The notes under the pieces are model-generated. The model ran no database searches, had not been told where the DNA came from, and saw only the letters and a program-made list of their open reading frames with translations. Below are positions 15,110 through 22,761 of a stretch of 64,000 bases of DNA, piece by piece. This stretch comes from Mucilaginibacter auburnensis (GTDB taxonomy: Bacteria > Bacteroidota > Bacteroidia > Sphingobacteriales > Sphingobacteriaceae): the NCBI RefSeq assembly GCF_002797815.1, contig NZ_PGFJ01000001.1, positions 1,984,001 through 2,048,000 on the forward strand, in the 5' to 3' direction. A program made the translations under genes and the position numbers. The first letter of the stretch is position 1. Each line of letters opens with the position of its first letter.

Positions 15110-15117
15110 TATATTTG
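15110..15117 (+). promoter_or_regulatory. -7 box of the SRP RNA gene
   Basis: TATATTTG ends 4 bases before the inferred 5' end of the RNA at 15121. The nearest TTG upstream is 24 bases away, longer than usual, so the -33 element is uncertain. Confidence 0.55.
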
Positions 15118-15120
15118 CGG

Positions 15121-15218
15121 TGGGTAAGTCTTTTACGGCCAGCTCCTCTTGAACTCCCCCAGGGTGGGAACGCAGCAAGGGTAGAGAGTTGAGCGGCGCG
15201 ATAAAAGTAGCTTACCCA
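15121..15218 (+). ncRNA. ffs: Bacterial small signal recognition particle RNA
   Basis: The RNA partner of Ffh in co-translational membrane targeting. About 98 bases; ends pair as TGGGTAAG / CTTACCCA. The conserved domain IV is visible around 15155-15185 (CCCAGG, the GGAA apical loop, then AGCAAGG), flanked by GGCCAGCTCCTCTTGAAC and GAGAGTTGAGCGGCGC, a layout typical of Bacteroidota SRP RNA. A run of six T follows at 15219 and should terminate transcription. The boundaries come from the terminal helix. Confidence 0.93.
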
Positions 15219-15330
15219 TTTTTTGTGCATTATTTTTTGGAATGATTTACTAAATGTAAATTTTCTGGTCTTTCTCAACCAATCTTTAATCTTCAAAAAC
15301 TAATCTTTTCAAAACCGCTATCTTAGCACA

Positions 15331-16376: not shown

Positions 16377-16407
16377 TTGTATAAGTTAAAAATAATGCAA
16401 ACTTTTG
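16377..16407 (+). promoter_or_regulatory. Probable promoter of the arginine operon
   Basis: TTG (16377-16379), a 20-base spacer and AACTTTTG (16400-16407, one mismatch to TAnnTTTG). The predicted start near 16411 is 31 bases before the leader ORF. Confidence 0.45.
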
Positions 16408-16441
16408 CGTCAAATTTCAAATAAAACAAACAACGATAGAA

Positions 16442-16564
16442 ATGAACCTTCAAAGCATAAATAAGCCTGCTGCGAGAGCTACCAAAGCTCCGTTAGCCGC
16501 TGCTTTGGTTTCAACTGTTTTATTTACCCCATCTCGACGAAGACTCTACATCCCAAGAGTTTAA
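16442..16564 (+). CDS. Putative arginine-rich leader peptide (attenuator)
   Basis: A 40-codon ORF upstream of the arginine operon. Its C-terminal part reads SRRRLYIPRV: three consecutive arginine codons CGA-CGA-AGA (codons 32-34, 16535-16543) and another AGA at codon 39, just before the stop. Total arginine is 6 of 40. Ribosome stalling at these codons under arginine shortage could alter folding of the RNA behind it. The Arg-codon segment (GACGAAG, 16536-16542) can pair with CTTC-TG-CGTC (16605-16614), which also pairs with GAAGTT at 16591-16596. The ORF is too short to be sure it is translated; the context makes the leader role the best reading. Confidence 0.55.
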   Translation: MNLQSINKPAARATKAPLAAALVSTVLFTPSRRRLYIPRV

Positions 16565-16590
16565 TTGAAGCGCGTTGCCTCAAAAAAACC

Positions 16591-16670
16591 GAAGTTGTTT
16601 TAAACTTCTGCGTCAAAAAACACTTTAATTACTAAGGCCTTAAAAGCCAAAATTTAAAAGTAATTTTTCT
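16591..16670 (+). promoter_or_regulatory. Candidate attenuator hairpins of the arginine operon
   Basis: Hairpin GAAGTT-gtttta-AACTTC (16591-16608) competes with pairing of its 3' arm to the Arg codons of the leader ORF. A second structure pairs AATTACT (16628-16634) with AGTAATT (16659-16665), with GGC/GCC paired inside, and is followed by a run of T just before the GNAT start codon, like a weak intrinsic terminator. Stems are AT-rich, so folding strength is uncertain. Confidence 0.4.
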
Positions 16671-16680
16671 ATCATCAATA

Positions 16681-17337
16681 ATGACCATACAAGATTTTGA
16701 TATACAGGTAGCATCCGCACAACACGTTGATTATGCTCAGCAAATTTGCGATGAGATGGCCAATTCTGCCAAAGCACGCGGTACAGGCATTGCCCAGCGC
16801 TCGCCTGAGTATGTTGCCAATAAGATGCTGGAAGGAAAGGCGGTTATAGCGTTGCATAAAGATGGTACATGGGCAGGCTTTTGCTACATTGAAACATGGA
16901 GCCATGGCGACTTTGTTGCTAACTCCGGCTTGATAGTTTCTCCTGAATTTAGAAAAGTGGGCTTGGCTAAGTCTATCAAGCATAAAATTTTCGAGCTTTC
17001 TCGTAAAAAATATCCTGAGGCTAAGCTATTTGGTTTAACTACGGGGCTCGCGGTGATGAAGATCAACTCGGAGTTAGGTTATGAACCTGTAACTTATTCA
17101 GAACTTACGCAGGATGAAGAGTTTTGGAAGGGCTGCCGCAGTTGCGTTAATTATGATATTTTAACCAGCAAAGAGCGTAAAAACTGTATGTGTACAGCTA
17201 TGCTGTTTGACCCCGCCGAAAAACAAAAGGAACAGGAGAACAAGCTGGAAAAAATAACTCACAAAGCTAATTTGTTTAAACGTATTGAAACTGCTATAAA
17301 GAGTTTTGGGCAAAGTTTGGACGAGTCTTTAAAATAG
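16681..17337 (+). CDS. GNAT acyltransferase, probable N-acylglutamate synthase of arginine synthesis
   Basis: A 218-residue GNAT protein as first gene of the arginine operon. The acetyl-CoA binding core is seen at about residues 80-135 (NSGLIVSPEFRKVGLAKSI with the R/K-x-x-G-L-A loop, then VMKINSELGYEPV). Bacteroidota lack classical ArgA and a GNAT in this position has been proposed as N-succinylglutamate synthase (family BT3761, from memory), fitting the ArgF' specificity seen here. Odd feature: cysteines C152-x-x-C155 and C169-x-C171 form a possible metal-binding cluster. A C-terminal helical tail follows. Confidence 0.78.
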   Translation: MTIQDFDIQVASAQHVDYAQQICDEMANSAKARGTGIAQRSPEYVANKMLEGKAVIALHKDGTWAGFCYIETWSHGDFVANSGLIVSPEFRKVGLAKSIKHKIFELSRKKYPEAKLFGLTTGLAVMKINSELGYEPVTYSELTQDEEFWKGCRSCVNYDILTSKERKNCMCTAMLFDPAEKQKEQENKLEKITHKANLFKRIETAIKSFGQSLDESLK

Positions 17338-17426: not shown

Positions 17427-18626
17427 ATGGAAAAAAAGAAAGTAGTTTTAGCTTATAGCGGTGGATTAGACACCTCATTTTGCTGTATTTATCTTACAAG
17501 AGATTTAGGTTACGAAGTGCATTCGGTAATTGTAAACACCGGCGGTTTTAGTGAAGAAGAGCTGAAAACGGTTGAAAAACGCGCTTATGAAATGGGTGTA
17601 ACCTCTCACCATGTGGTTGATGAGACTAAGAACTTTTACAATACCTGCGTGCGCTATTTAATTTACGGTAACGTACTTAAGAATAATACTTACCCGCTAT
17701 CTGTAAGCGCTGAGCGCGTTAGCCAGGCTACAGCTATTGCTAATTATGCTAAAGAGATAGGCGCTGAGTTTGTTGCACATGGCAGCACCGGTGCGGGTAA
17801 CGACCAGGTTAGGTTTGATATGATCTTCAATATCCTCATTCCTAACGTAGGTATCATTACGCCAATACGCGATTTGAAATTGAGCCGTGAAGCAGAGATA
17901 GAATATCTTAAAAAACATGGTGTTGAAATGAATTTTGAAAAGGCCAAGTATTCTATCAACAAGGGCATATGGGGTACATCTGTAGGTGGTAAAGAAACGC
18001 TTACTTCAAACCTTGGTTTACCTGAAGATGCATGGCCAACTCAGGTTACTGCAACCGAAACAAAAAACGTTGAGTTGGAGTTTGAGAAAGGCGAGTTAGT
18101 TGGGTTAAATGGCGTAAAATTTGACCATCCAACCAAAGTGATACAAGAGCTGCAAGCTATTGCCGGTTCTTATGGTGTTGGTAGAGATATTCACGTTGGT
18201 GACACCATTATCGGAATAAAAGGTCGTGTTGGTTTTGAGGCTGCTGCACCAATGATCATCATTAAAGCGCACCATACTTTAGAGAAACACACACTAACCA
18301 AATGGCAGTTAACGTGGAAAGATCAGTTATCTATGTTCTACGGTAACTGGCTGCATGAAGGACAGTTCCACGACCCAATTATGCGTAATATGGAAGCCTT
18401 CCTTACCGATACGCAGAAACAGGTAAGCGGTAAAGTATTTGTTGAATTACAGCCTTACCGTTTCCAGGTTGTAGGCATCGAGTCTGACCACGATTTAATG
18501 TCAAACAAATTTGGCAGCTACGGTGAAATGAACAACGCATGGAGTGGGGAAGACGTCAAAGGCTTCTCTAAAATATTTGGTAATCAGGTAATGATCTACC
18601 ATAAAGTAAATGCCACCGAAGCTTAA
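17427..18626 (+). CDS. argG: Argininosuccinate synthase
   Basis: Joins citrulline and aspartate with ATP to form argininosuccinate, the penultimate step of arginine synthesis. The 399-residue protein has the N-type ATP pyrophosphatase loop AYSGGLDTS at residues 9-17, STGAGNDQVRFD around 123, and KSIW-type segment SINKGIWGTSVGG around 180. Length is normal. It lies second in the operon behind a palindromic repeat and is followed after 2 bases by a cupin gene. Confidence 0.96.
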   Translation: MEKKKVVLAYSGGLDTSFCCIYLTRDLGYEVHSVIVNTGGFSEEELKTVEKRAYEMGVTSHHVVDETKNFYNTCVRYLIYGNVLKNNTYPLSVSAERVSQATAIANYAKEIGAEFVAHGSTGAGNDQVRFDMIFNILIPNVGIITPIRDLKLSREAEIEYLKKHGVEMNFEKAKYSINKGIWGTSVGGKETLTSNLGLPEDAWPTQVTATETKNVELEFEKGELVGLNGVKFDHPTKVIQELQAIAGSYGVGRDIHVGDTIIGIKGRVGFEAAAPMIIIKAHHTLEKHTLTKWQLTWKDQLSMFYGNWLHEGQFHDPIMRNMEAFLTDTQKQVSGKVFVELQPYRFQVVGIESDHDLMSNKFGSYGEMNNAWSGEDVKGFSKIFGNQVMIYHKVNATEA

Positions 18627-19024: not shown

Positions 19025-19472
19025 ACGCATAACGGCGAATGAGGCTGATCTGGTTGCAGAACTGTTTGATAAATACAGAATATTTTATAAACAAGAATCG
19101 GAAATGGCGTTAGCTGAAAGTTTCATTAATGATAGGCTTAGTAATAACGAGTCGGTTATTTATGTTGCTTTATGGGACAATAAGCCGGTAGGTTTCACGC
19201 AGCTTTATCCAAAGTACTCGTCTATGCGAGCGGTGAAGAATTGGATATTGAATGACCTGTATGTAGATGAAGCCTATAGAAACAAAGGAATTGCGTCAAA
19301 ACTGATACAAGCTGCAATGGATTTTGCAAAAGCTAACAAGGCTAAGTTTGTGCAGTTGGAAACGCAGACTGATAATTTTAATGCCCAACGCTTATACGAA
19401 TCTGTTGGGTTTATACAACAGCAACCGGATACCGAGTTCATGGTGTACCGTAAGGCCGTTGATAACAACTAA
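19005..19472 (+). CDS. GNAT family N-acetyltransferase
   Basis: A 155-residue single-domain GNAT enzyme: LNDLYVDEAYRNKGIASKLI (motif A with R-N-K-G-I-A) and LETQTDNFNAQRLYESVGF (motif B) are clear. The start at 19005 overlaps the cupin gene by 20 bases and fits the conserved beginning; an in-frame ATG at 18945 would add 20 unrelated residues. It is 4 bases from argC. Substrate unknown; its place in the arginine operon is suggestive but not proof of a role in arginine synthesis. Confidence 0.86.
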   Translation: MIELTVKRITANEADLVAELFDKYRIFYKQESEMALAESFINDRLSNNESVIYVALWDNKPVGFTQLYPKYSSMRAVKNWILNDLYVDEAYRNKGIASKLIQAAMDFAKANKAKFVQLETQTDNFNAQRLYESVGFIQQQPDTEFMVYRKAVDNN

Positions 19473-19476
19473 TATC

Positions 19477-20460
19477 ATGACTAAAATAAAAGCAGGAATA
19501 GTGGGTGGAGCAGGTTATACCGGCGGTGAAATGCTGCGGATCCTGATCAATCACCCTGACGTTGATATAGCTTTTGTACACAGCAACAGCAATGCAGGTA
19601 ACCATATTTACGAGGTGCACACCGATTTGTTTGGTGATACCGACATGCGCTTTACCGATGCGTTATCAACCGATGTTGATGTGCTGTTTTTATGCGTAGG
19701 TCATGGTGATGCGCGCAAGTTTTTAGATGCTAACCCAATTCCGGATAGGGTTAAGATAATCGACTTAAGTCAGGATTTCAGGCTTTCTGCAACATCTACT
19801 CATGGCGACAAAAGCTTTGTGTATGGTTTGCCTGAGTTGAATAAGGAAACTATTAAATCGGCTCAGAACATTGCTAATCCGGGTTGCTTTGCAACTACTT
19901 TACAGTTGGGCTTATTGCCTTTGGCTGCAAAAGGTTTGTTGAACAGTGAGGTGCATATATCTGCTACCACAGGTTCAACAGGAGCGGGACAAAGCCTTGC
20001 AACTACGTCGCATTTTACATGGCGTAATGATAACCTTTCTGTTTATAAGGCATTTGGTCATCAGCACTTAAATGAGATAGGGCAATCACTCAACCAATTA
20101 CAGCCTGATTTTGGTCAGACGCTGAATTTTATTCCTTATCGCGGCGACTTTACCCGCGGTATATTCGCTGCTATCCATTTAGATAGCCAGTTGGAGGAGG
20201 ATGAGGCTTTGAAGCTTTATCATGATTTTTACGCCGAACATCCGTTTACGCACGTAACCAGCAGAAATATTGACTTAAAACAGGTAGTTAACACCAATAA
20301 AGTGTTTTTGCAGATTAAAAAACATGGCAGTAAACTTTTTATAATAAGCATTTTAGACAATTTACTTAAAGGCGCGTCAGGACAAGCCGTTCAAAACATG
20401 AACCTACTATTTTGCCTGGATGAACGCGCCGGCTTACGACTCAAAGCAGCAGCCTTTTAA
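19477..20460 (+). CDS. argC: N-acyl-gamma-glutamyl-phosphate reductase
   Basis: NADPH-dependent reduction of N-acylglutamyl phosphate to the semialdehyde, third step of the pathway. The protein from ATG 19477 is 327 residues: NADP-binding GIVGGAGYTGGEMLRIL at residues 7-23, catalytic C137 in NPGCFATTLQLGLLPL, and the C-terminal NLLKGASGQAVQNMNLLF. An open frame extends 153 bases upstream into the GNAT gene but without homology. It follows the GNAT gene after 4 bases and is followed by a repeat-filled gap before argD. Confidence 0.95.
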   Translation: MTKIKAGIVGGAGYTGGEMLRILINHPDVDIAFVHSNSNAGNHIYEVHTDLFGDTDMRFTDALSTDVDVLFLCVGHGDARKFLDANPIPDRVKIIDLSQDFRLSATSTHGDKSFVYGLPELNKETIKSAQNIANPGCFATTLQLGLLPLAAKGLLNSEVHISATTGSTGAGQSLATTSHFTWRNDNLSVYKAFGHQHLNEIGQSLNQLQPDFGQTLNFIPYRGDFTRGIFAAIHLDSQLEEDEALKLYHDFYAEHPFTHVTSRNIDLKQVVNTNKVFLQIKKHGSKLFIISILDNLLKGASGQAVQNMNLLFCLDERAGLRLKAAAF

Positions 20461-20591: not shown

Positions 20592-21722
20592 ATGAAACTA
20601 TTCGACGTATATCCAATTAATCCTATCAACATTGTAAAAGGTGTTGGCAGTTTAGTTTATGATGATAAAGGCCAGGAATACCTGGACCTATATGGCGGTC
20701 ATGCCGTAATTTCTATTGGTCACACACATCCGCACTACGTAAAACGATTGGAAGACCAGTTGCATAAAATAGGGTTTTACTCTAATTCTATTGAGATTCC
20801 TTTACAGGCTCAATTAGCTGAAAAGCTGGGTAAAGTGTCGGGGAAAGAAGATTATCAATTATTTTTGTGTAATTCAGGTGCTGAAGCCAACGAGAATGCC
20901 ATGAAACTGGCCTCGTTCTATAACGGTAAAAAGAAAGTGATCTGCTTTACAGGAGCATTTCACGGACGTACATCGCTGGCTGTTGCTGTTACTGATAACC
21001 CTAAGATTGTTCCACCGGTTAATGAGAGCGACAATGTGGTACGCCTGCCATGGAAAGATGAAGCCGCTTTGGAGCAAGCTTTTGCCGAGCATGAAATATC
21101 GTCGGTTATAATTGAAGGTATTCAGGGTGTGGGTGGCATACAGGTAGCGCCGGAAAGCTTCCTGCAGAAGATCAGAACACTTTGCGATGAGCACAACGCG
21201 GTATTTATTGCTGATTCGATTCAGTGCGGTTACGGTCGTTCAGGTAAATTTTACTCCCATGATTATGCCGGTGTTGACGCGGATATTTACACCATGGCTA
21301 AGGGCATAGGCAATGGCTTCCCAATTGGAGCTATTAGTATATCTCCAAAAATACAGCCTGCTTATGGCATGTTGGGCACTACCTTCGGCGGAAACCATTT
21401 AGCTTGCGCTGCTGCTTTGGCTGTGCTGGAAGTAATGGAAGAGGATAAACTGATACAGAATGCTGCCGAACGCGGATCTTATTTGATCGAAGAACTTAAG
21501 AAGTTTGATCAGATTAACGAGGTGCGTGGTAGGGGCTTGATGATAGGCATTGATCTGCCGGCCGAGTTGGCTCATGCAAAAAAAGATCTGCTGTTTAAGC
21601 ATCATATATTCACCGGCGAAGCCAAACCAAATGTGATAAGGCTTTTACCTGCACTAAATTTAACTAAAGCACACGCCGACCAGTTTTTAGAGGCGTTTAG
21701 TAAAGTATTGCGCCCCCTCTAA
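20592..21722 (+). CDS. argD: N-acylornithine aminotransferase
   Basis: PLP-dependent class III aminotransferase converting the N-acylglutamate semialdehyde to N-acylornithine. The 376-residue protein has GAEANENA at residues 96-104, GAFHGRT at 121-127, the aspartate D208 in IADSIQCGYGRSG, the Schiff-base lysine K237 in MAKGIGNGFPIGA, and TTFGGNHLAC. Length is normal for ArgD. The last codons (RPL and stop) come from the start of the repeat at 21710, suggesting the repeat inserted at the 3' end and supplied a new stop. Confidence 0.93.
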   Translation: MKLFDVYPINPINIVKGVGSLVYDDKGQEYLDLYGGHAVISIGHTHPHYVKRLEDQLHKIGFYSNSIEIPLQAQLAEKLGKVSGKEDYQLFLCNSGAEANENAMKLASFYNGKKKVICFTGAFHGRTSLAVAVTDNPKIVPPVNESDNVVRLPWKDEAALEQAFAEHEISSVIIEGIQGVGGIQVAPESFLQKIRTLCDEHNAVFIADSIQCGYGRSGKFYSHDYAGVDADIYTMAKGIGNGFPIGAISISPKIQPAYGMLGTTFGGNHLACAAALAVLEVMEEDKLIQNAAERGSYLIEELKKFDQINEVRGRGLMIGIDLPAELAHAKKDLLFKHHIFTGEAKPNVIRLLPALNLTKAHADQFLEAFSKVLRPL

Positions 21723-21813: not shown

Positions 21814-22761
21814 ATGAAACTTTTTACATCAGTACACGACGTAACCGATATTAACTCGTTAGCAGCCGAAGCATTGGCGCTTAAACAAAATCCATATGCT
21901 TATAAGCATCTCGGCGAAAATAAAACCCTCGGACTTGTTTTTTTAAACCCGAGCCTGCGTACCCGCATGAGCACCCAAAAGGCCGCCATGAATTTGGGTA
22001 TGAATGTTATGGTGTTAAACATAGACAAAGAAGGCTGGGCGCTGGAATTGCGCGACGGCGCTATTATGAATGGTACCACCGTTGAGCACGTACGAGAGGC
22101 TGCTGCCGTAATGGGCCAGTATGTTGATATTATTGGCGTACGCTCTTTCCCGGGATTGAAAGACAGGGAAGAGGATTACAGCGAAACCATATTTAATAAA
22201 TTTGTTGATTTTTGTGGGGTGCCTGTTGTAAGTTTGGAATCTGCTACGCGCCACCCGCTGCAGAGTTTAGCCGATCTGGTTACTATTACCGAACTGAAAA
22301 CCCGTAGGCGACCAAAGGTTGTTTTGACTTGGGCTCCGCATATTAAGCCGCTTCCGCAGGCAGTACCTAACTCATTTGCCGAGTGGATGTGCAAAGCAGA
22401 TGTTGAATTTACCATCGCACATCCTGAAGGTTACGAGTTAAATGCTGATTTCACCAACGGCGCCACCATTACGCATAATCAGGACGAAGCTTTGGCTGAT
22501 GCTGATTTTATCTATGTAAAAAACTGGTCGGCTTATGAGCCTTATGGTAAAGTACTGCCGGGTAATGAAGACTGGATGCTTACCAATGAGAAACTAAAAG
22601 GAACCAATGATGCGAAAGTAATGCACTGCTTACCTGTACGCCGTAATTTGGAGCTTTCTGATGAGATATTGGATGGGCCAAACTCGGTAGTAGTACATGA
22701 AGCCGGTAACCGTGTTTGGGCAGCCCAGGCGGTTTTGAAACATATGTTGGAGGCATTATAA
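21814..22761 (+). CDS. argF': N-succinylornithine (or N-acetylornithine) carbamoyltransferase
   Basis: Transfers a carbamoyl group to an N-acylated ornithine, replacing the normal ornithine step. The 315-residue protein has the carbamoyl phosphate loop SLRTR at residues 47-51, ATRHPLQSLADL, TWAPH-KPLPQAVPNSFAEW and HCLPVRR. It aligns throughout with the Bacteroides fragilis succinylornithine enzyme. Residue 90 (in NGTTVEH) is Val; the acetylornithine enzyme of Xanthomonas has Glu there, the Bacteroides enzyme Pro, and Glu-to-Val is known to convert acetyl to succinyl specificity. Succinylornithine is therefore the favoured substrate. Last gene of the operon. Confidence 0.93.
   Translation: MKLFTSVHDVTDINSLAAEALALKQNPYAYKHLGENKTLGLVFLNPSLRTRMSTQKAAMNLGMNVMVLNIDKEGWALELRDGAIMNGTTVEHVREAAAVMGQYVDIIGVRSFPGLKDREEDYSETIFNKFVDFCGVPVVSLESATRHPLQSLADLVTITELKTRRRPKVVLTWAPHIKPLPQAVPNSFAEWMCKADVEFTIAHPEGYELNADFTNGATITHNQDEALADADFIYVKNWSAYEPYGKVLPGNEDWMLTNEKLKGTNDAKVMHCLPVRRNLELSDEILDGPNSVVVHEAGNRVWAAQAVLKHMLEAL

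Follow-up and report, generated by a model that had tools for sequence, protein, structure and literature searches.

The arginine operon of Mucilaginibacter auburnensis raises the question of what controls arginine synthesis in a genome without ArgR, and whether a 40-codon open reading frame (ORF) directly ahead of the operon takes part in that control. The window analysed here is a 64,000-nt stretch of this genome, and all positions refer to it. Sequence comparisons lend good support to a ribosome-mediated arginine leader that would regulate the operon. We consider the whole to be best explained by a ribosome-mediated arginine sensor that would be turned on by scarcity, with a probability of about 0.78; that the leader acts through the ribosome is, taken by itself, very probable.

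A short arginine-rich ORF precedes the arginine operon

The first-pass annotation had described an ORF of 40 codons with Arg at codons 32 to 34 and at codon 39, and our ORF calling in the window reproduced its coordinates and codons (Table 1). The encoded peptide is MNLQSINKPAARATKAPLAAALVSTVLFTPSRRRLYIPRV. Codons 32-34 read CGA CGA AGA (16535-16543), codon 39 is AGA (16556-16558), and codon 12 is an additional Arg. Its placement of the ORF right before the first gene of the arginine operon was also correct, as the next gene starts at 16681, 116 nt past the leader stop. No Pfam family matched the leader peptide, DUF2618/SpeFL (PF10940) included, and no Rfam covariance model (riboswitch, T-box and others) matched positions 16380-16700 at E values up to 1.

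We found the gene order GNAT acetyltransferase, argG, a cupin gene, a second GNAT gene, argC, argD and argF'. The GNAT assignment of the first gene comes from PDB sequence matches, with Pfam and NCBIfam below cut-off, and this gene is a candidate N-acetylglutamate synthase. Despite argG in the operon, PF14698, the C-terminal domain of argininosuccinate lyase, had no match in the genome, whose argininosuccinate lyase may be divergent. Another Mucilaginibacter genome (G205, locus L173) carries a second copy of the acetyltransferase gene, 55% identical, with no Arg leader seen ahead of it. The window also contains a small SRP RNA of the Bacteroidales type (RF04183) at 15115-15221.

Table 1. Positions of the leader, its associated elements and the downstream genes in the window
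Feature	Positions	Strand	Details
Bacteroidota-type promoter	16377..16407	+	TTG 16377-16379, 20-nt spacer, AACTTTTG 16400-16407
Arginine leader ORF	16442..16564	+	40 codons, stop TAA 16562-16564; homologous ORF in relatives
CGA CGA pair, codons 32-33, proposed stall site	16535..16540	+	invariant 97/97 and 77/77, zero synonymous changes on trees
Third Arg codon AGA	16541..16543	+	Arg kept in genus, codon free
C-terminal peptide YIPRV	16547..16561	+	amino acids conserved, synonymous changes at -3 and -2
Hairpin P2, GAAGTT-GTTTTA-AACTTC	16591..16608	+	-6.0 kcal/mol, z -4.9
Weak AU stem AATTACT/AGTAATT, T-rich 3' side ending 12 nt ahead of first gene	16627..16668	+	-3.4 kcal/mol, z 0.11
GNAT-type acetyltransferase, first operon gene	16681..17337	+	PDB GNAT PA4794 E 1.5e-7; weak Pfam GNAT
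argG, argininosuccinate synthase	17427..18626	+	TIGR00032 above cut-off
argC, N-acetyl-gamma-glutamyl-phosphate reductase	19471..20460	+	TIGR01850 above cut-off; start approximate
argD-type aminotransferase	20592..21722	+	TIGR00707 E 1.4e-105, under its cut-off
argF', N-acetylornithine carbamoyltransferase	21814..22761	+	NF003384 above cut-off

The promoter that had been proposed 35 bases upstream of the ORF was confirmed as a Bacteroidota-type motif. We found the TTG-spacer-TTTG pattern in 96 of 97 Mucilaginibacter sequences compared to 1% in shuffles, and its end lies mostly 34-36 nt ahead of the leader ATG in this genus; the strict pattern was present in just 15 of 77 Sphingobacterium sequences. 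Transcription would start a few bases past 16407. Bacteroidota ribosomes rarely use Shine-Dalgarno pairing, and an A-rich region before the ATG is expected for efficient translation start in this phylum. The 20 nt ahead of the leader ATG are 58% A, while T (46%) and A (31%) predominate in the 20 nt ahead of the first operon gene.

The leader is conserved and occupies the position of argR

Comparison with relatives indicates that the leader ORF is real and under strong selection. Among 80 named relatives, gathered by scanning for the first operon gene, all 80 have one short ORF with a similar C-terminus (Arg codons, P-R-x-stop) directly ahead of the acetyltransferase-argG operon. The leader is present in 97 distinct Mucilaginibacter sequences; five further loci of the genus were missed by the pattern, of which three share the C-terminus but lack an ATG start, another has an extended C-terminus, and the fifth runs into a contig end. 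It is likewise present in 77 distinct Sphingobacterium/Parapedobacter sequences, all of which end in LPRA-stop and 76 in RRPILPRA-stop. At more distant Bacteroidia loci we required an upstream ORF with at least three Arg among its last 14 codons, and found one at 45 of 80 loci, against 7.5% in shuffled sequence and 7 of 80 on the reverse strand. Conservation of the ORF and its Arg run, which the first-pass annotation had named as a check, extends across the family and beyond. At one locus (L155) two tandem Arg-rich ORFs, MHTSNKTNQISLRRRRPMRRR and MQSYNTFLSLPIIIITTDNRISVRRFFPRP, stand ahead of the acetyltransferase gene.

ArgR (PF01316) is absent from the M. auburnensis genome and from the 12 other family members drawn, and PF01316 scores above cut-off in 14 of 296 Bacteroidia. 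Among the strong-ArgR Bacteroidia genomes drawn that have both genes, argR directly precedes the acetyltransferase gene in nine of nine (G031, G069, G099, G129, G155, G179, G221, G274 and G291), with 290-368 nt from the end of the ArgR DNA-binding domain to the acetyltransferase match. An Arg-rich leader occupies this position in most other Bacteroidia examined. The picture is that of a regulator swap at one spot, with either argR or an Arg-rich leader ahead of the acetyltransferase gene. Soil, water and guts all harbour many Bacteroidota, and the literature that we searched does not describe how most of them control arginine synthesis without ArgR.

Selection acts on the codon pair and on the end of the peptide

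All 174 sequences (97 Mucilaginibacter and 77 Sphingobacterium/Parapedobacter) share an unchanged CGA CGA pair. Half of its possible single-base changes are synonymous, yet none occurred on the trees, while other Arg codons vary. Counted back from the stop, the pair occupies codons -9/-8 in Mucilaginibacter and -8/-7 in Sphingobacterium, and CGA makes up 8% of the Arg codons in the genes of the window. In Pedobacter the invariant Arg codon is CGG (24/24). The third Arg codon, by comparison, is AGG, CGA, CGG or AGA in relatives, with 11 synonymous and no nonsynonymous changes. In Mucilaginibacter CGACGA has fewer downstream pairing partners than in shuffled sequence, which argues for a cause at the level of the codon rather than of pairing. 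In the Salmonella his leader CGA is slower to read than CGU and CGC, and Arg pairs that contain CGA are prone to stalling (PMC4046918); theory with supporting data holds that attenuators prefer the codon most sensitive to starvation (PMC1183508). The CGA CGA pair is likely to be a ribosome pause site.

Selection is also evident past this site. In Mucilaginibacter the leader ends with Phe or Tyr at -5 (97/97), Pro at -3 (91/97) and Arg at -2 (97/97), and the aromatic residue at -5 is common to Mucilaginibacter and Pedobacter leaders. The non-Arg positions of the Sphingobacterium P-I-L-P-R-A end show 20 synonymous changes and one nonsynonymous change. The N-terminal two thirds of the leader drifts, with 448 nonsynonymous and 221 synonymous changes in the N-terminal part of the Sphingobacterium leader. 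Simple codon sensing does not require conserved amino acids past the proposed pause site, and arrest at the stop codon is therefore possible.

TnaC and SpeFL are bacterial arrest peptides that depend on a metabolite. By analogy, arginine or a relative of it could stall the ribosome at P-R-x-stop and turn the operon off, possibly with CGA CGA acting alongside. The residues past the codon pair are kept via synonymous changes even where RNA pairing changes by compensation, and the distance from the codon pair to the peptide end is fixed, as such an arrest would have it. However, the peptide has no Pfam homology to DUF2618/SpeFL, the C-termini differ among clades (PRA, PRV, PRI, PRT and RR), and arrest leaves the codon-level lock on CGA CGA unexplained. 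We therefore consider an arrest peptide unlikely. Tentatively, the two ideas might be combined in a two-stage sensor, in which CGA CGA would read charged tRNA-Arg and P-R-x-stop would arrest the ribosome when arginine (or ornithine or citrulline) is plentiful, which would keep the stop-codon hairpin from closing and the operon silent; this too we hold to be improbable. An invariant codon pair, a kept peptide end and no strong terminator make the locus a testable system in which to study any coupling of codon choice, nascent peptide and translation start on ribosomes that seldom rely on Shine-Dalgarno pairing.

RNA hairpins are conserved around the leader stop codon

We examined pairing with a test that needs no alignment and compares own arms with arms swapped between species. 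By this test, in which noise of up to about t +3.9 makes single values modest, hairpin P2 is kept while its sequence varies between species (t -4.9 in Mucilaginibacter and -4.0 to -4.2 in Sphingobacterium), and so is a hairpin, P1, that encloses the leader stop codon (t -3.4 in Mucilaginibacter, -4.9 in Sphingobacterium, -2.6 in other Bacteroidia and -3.6 in Daejeonella/Pelobium). Arm swapping did not find P1 in Pedobacter. Direct counting of P1 arms revealed compensatory changes, with CTGCC facing GGCAG in 58 of 58 cases and CTACC facing GGTAG in 16 of 16, never crossed, although these sequences are related and non-independent so that the counts overstate the number of events. The P1 of the window itself departs from the form common in the genus.

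In Sphingobacterium/Parapedobacter the Arg codons, as CGACC(C/T), are complementary to (G/A)GGTCG approximately 10-20 nt ahead of the first-gene start. The Pro codon CCC co-occurs with G in 16 of 19 cases and CCT with A in 49 of 55, a covariation that follows few clades, and GGTCG or GGTCA stands ahead of the first-gene start in 73 of 77 sequences. This long-range pairing was seen in Sphingobacterium/Parapedobacter only, and we found no pre-start partner for the Arg codons in Mucilaginibacter. In Mucilaginibacter folds, ACTGTT of the leader is predicted to pair with AACGGT ahead of the first-gene start; this pairing failed by-eye comparison, gave no arm-swap signal and was rejected. Folding models with a ribosome at either the pause or the stop predicted only weak switching: the first-gene start became more exposed by +0.02 in Mucilaginibacter and +0.07 in Sphingobacterium, both ribosome positions being alike. 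Pair probabilities averaged on a MAFFT alignment were diluted by gaps and uninformative.

The first-pass annotation had paired the Arg codons with the 3' arm of the hairpin at 16591-16608. The hairpin exists (P2 in Table 1), but in the predicted fold the codons pair, as GACG, with CGTC at 16611-16614, which lies just 3' of the hairpin and is not its arm. Neither this pairing nor that with the arm is conserved, in keeping with the shortage of CGACGA partners in Mucilaginibacter. Three loci (L017, L020 and L245) have, in place of P2, a palindrome that resembles a repeat (GACGCAA...TTGCGTC) in the stretch from the leader to the first gene; it may be a mobile element of the REP type co-opted as a hairpin.

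The conserved stop-codon hairpin and the Sphingobacterium pairing between Arg codons and pre-start region point to translation or the stability of the mRNA as the controlled step, rather than to intrinsic termination. The output is probably translation start or mRNA stability and not an intrinsic terminator. A related possibility is that translation of the leader shields the transcript from Rho-dependent termination or from a nuclease, with arginine acting via the Arg codon pair. In Salmonella, translation of the orf34 leader guards the speF transcript against Rho-dependent termination (PMC6386406), and the architecture described here (adjacent Arg codons, a stop-codon hairpin and no intrinsic terminator) fits that system. 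On the other hand, orf34 governs a catabolic gene, and the sequence here reveals neither a Rho site nor a cleavage site; we regard such protection as possible but unlikely.

A strong predicted intrinsic terminator follows the Trp leader but not the arginine leader

In classical transcription attenuation, as in the his and trp operons of E. coli, the position of the ribosome would select between an antiterminator and an intrinsic terminator. The first-pass annotation had pointed to a weak terminator-like stem with a T-run before the operon. This stem is at chance level (z 0.11) and is not conserved as a terminator, and a terminator scan of the window returned no terminator-like site at the arginine leader. 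The scanner also missed a strong terminator elsewhere in the genome because of a loop-size limit, so the scan is not decisive alone, and folding and relatives were used too. The arms of the AU stem (16627-16633 and 16659-16665) show weak covariation (t -1.9 by arm swapping), and the stem might instead cover the translation start region. A weak hairpin with a T-rich stretch was found in 26 of 60 Mucilaginibacter sequences compared to 21% of shuffles, and in some Daejeonella and Parapedobacter. A terminator-like site was found in none of 22 Pedobacter sequences, and further clades were near the shuffle rate.

The strong terminator in question belongs to a Trp leader, MIKNNNRNFWWHSLNWAAGVSFDQQD, that stands ahead of trpE in the same genome (L337, reverse strand, about 80 nt before trpE). 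It is followed by the intrinsic terminator AAAAACCCGGCGAGTCCTCCTCTGCCGGGTTTTTT (-19.5 kcal/mol, z -5.4), and the two together look like a classical trp attenuator, here in a member of the Bacteroidota. The organism thus appears to use attenuation by intrinsic termination, which, along with the weak hairpins of some relatives, speaks for the same mechanism at the arginine operon. Against it stand the stem at chance level, the lack of terminator-like sites in Pedobacter and the near-shuffle rates of other clades, and we find classical attenuation of the arginine operon rather doubtful. A His-rich leader, MGLFNLHHLQLHHHRLVMNR, lies directly ahead of hisG (L333:1221-1283) with no obvious terminator. 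The genome has several leader peptides, and its arginine leader is built unlike its Trp leader. Of the arginine leader attenuator claimed by the first-pass annotation, the leader is supported by conservation of the ORF and its Arg codons, while the proposed RNA switch is not conserved and its terminator is at chance.

It is very improbable that the short gene encodes a trans-acting small protein or passes ribosomes on to the following gene through reinitiation, a role proposed for antenna-type leader genes including those of Bacteroidetes (PMC4833913), since its N-terminal two thirds drifts freely, the gap to the next gene is 80-155 nt against 11-14 bp in the antenna class, and the leader is always at the arginine operon.

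A model for the arginine leader

In the ribosome-mediated sensor that we prefer, the mRNA would begin at the conserved promoter and first encode the 40-residue leader peptide behind its A-rich start region. When charged tRNA-Arg is scarce, the ribosome would pause at CGA CGA, 8-9 codons ahead of the stop; when arginine is ample, it would proceed to the leader stop codon. A ribosome at the stop would open the hairpin that encloses it, while a paused ribosome would permit the hairpin and cover the Arg codons. In Sphingobacterium the first-gene start would be accessible while the ribosome is paused, and once the ribosome has departed the Arg codons could block it. The operon would be on when arginine is scarce, most likely via translation initiation or mRNA stability. 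From the conserved elements we infer that the ribosome pauses, which way the operon responds, at which step this takes effect, and that the signal is arginine itself.

Comparison with known leader peptides

Leader-peptide control of amino acid operons is already known, and the arginine leader in Bacteroidota would be a variant of it. A survey from 2010 knew such control only from Proteobacteria and Actinobacteria, with Firmicutes then added (PMC2965389). Bacteroidota transcriptome papers mention leader peptides in their main text in general terms, without detail (PMC9723704, PMC7366714). Our literature search found no paper on arginine leaders in Bacteroidota; supplements outside the search may already list one.

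The closest worked example is orf34 (SpeFL)/speF of Salmonella. Like the arginine leader as modelled here, this small ORF senses arginine through a pair of neighbouring Arg codons; its stop-codon hairpin depends on ribosome position, the next start is blocked, and an intrinsic terminator is not needed (PMC6386406). It differs in its peptide (no DUF2618 match here) and in that it controls ornithine decarboxylase and not arginine synthesis. Furthermore, rare and frequent Arg codons are equivalent in orf34 (PMC6386406), whereas the codon pair of the arginine leader is invariant. The his and trp attenuators of E. coli and Salmonella share with it a leader rich in codons for the product directly ahead of the operon; in contrast, the leader here would sense Arg instead of His or Trp, has no recognisable antiterminator/terminator pair and occupies the argR position of ArgR-bearing Bacteroidia.

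Two further systems resemble parts of the model. In the actinobacterial LEU element, the Leu codons pair with the leuA ribosome-binding site and classical attenuation was judged unlikely (PMC1262725). Its regulatory codons are complementary to the first-gene start region, as in the Sphingobacterium version, but it reads Leu instead of Arg, and no pseudoknot was found here. In rbfL of Staphylococcus aureus, rare leader Arg codons sense arginine limitation with an output at translation initiation; there the pausing ribosome directly occludes the following ribosome-binding site and silences the gene (PMC13009471), whereas a pause at the arginine leader would be expected to activate the operon.

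The arginine attenuator peptide of fungi lies upstream of an arginine synthesis gene, has its conserved part near the stop, and undergoes arginine-induced arrest. We know of no sequence relation between it and the Bacteroidota leader. If the two-stage sensor were true, the leader would be a bacterial counterpart of this fungal peptide, replacing ArgR across much of Bacteroidia.
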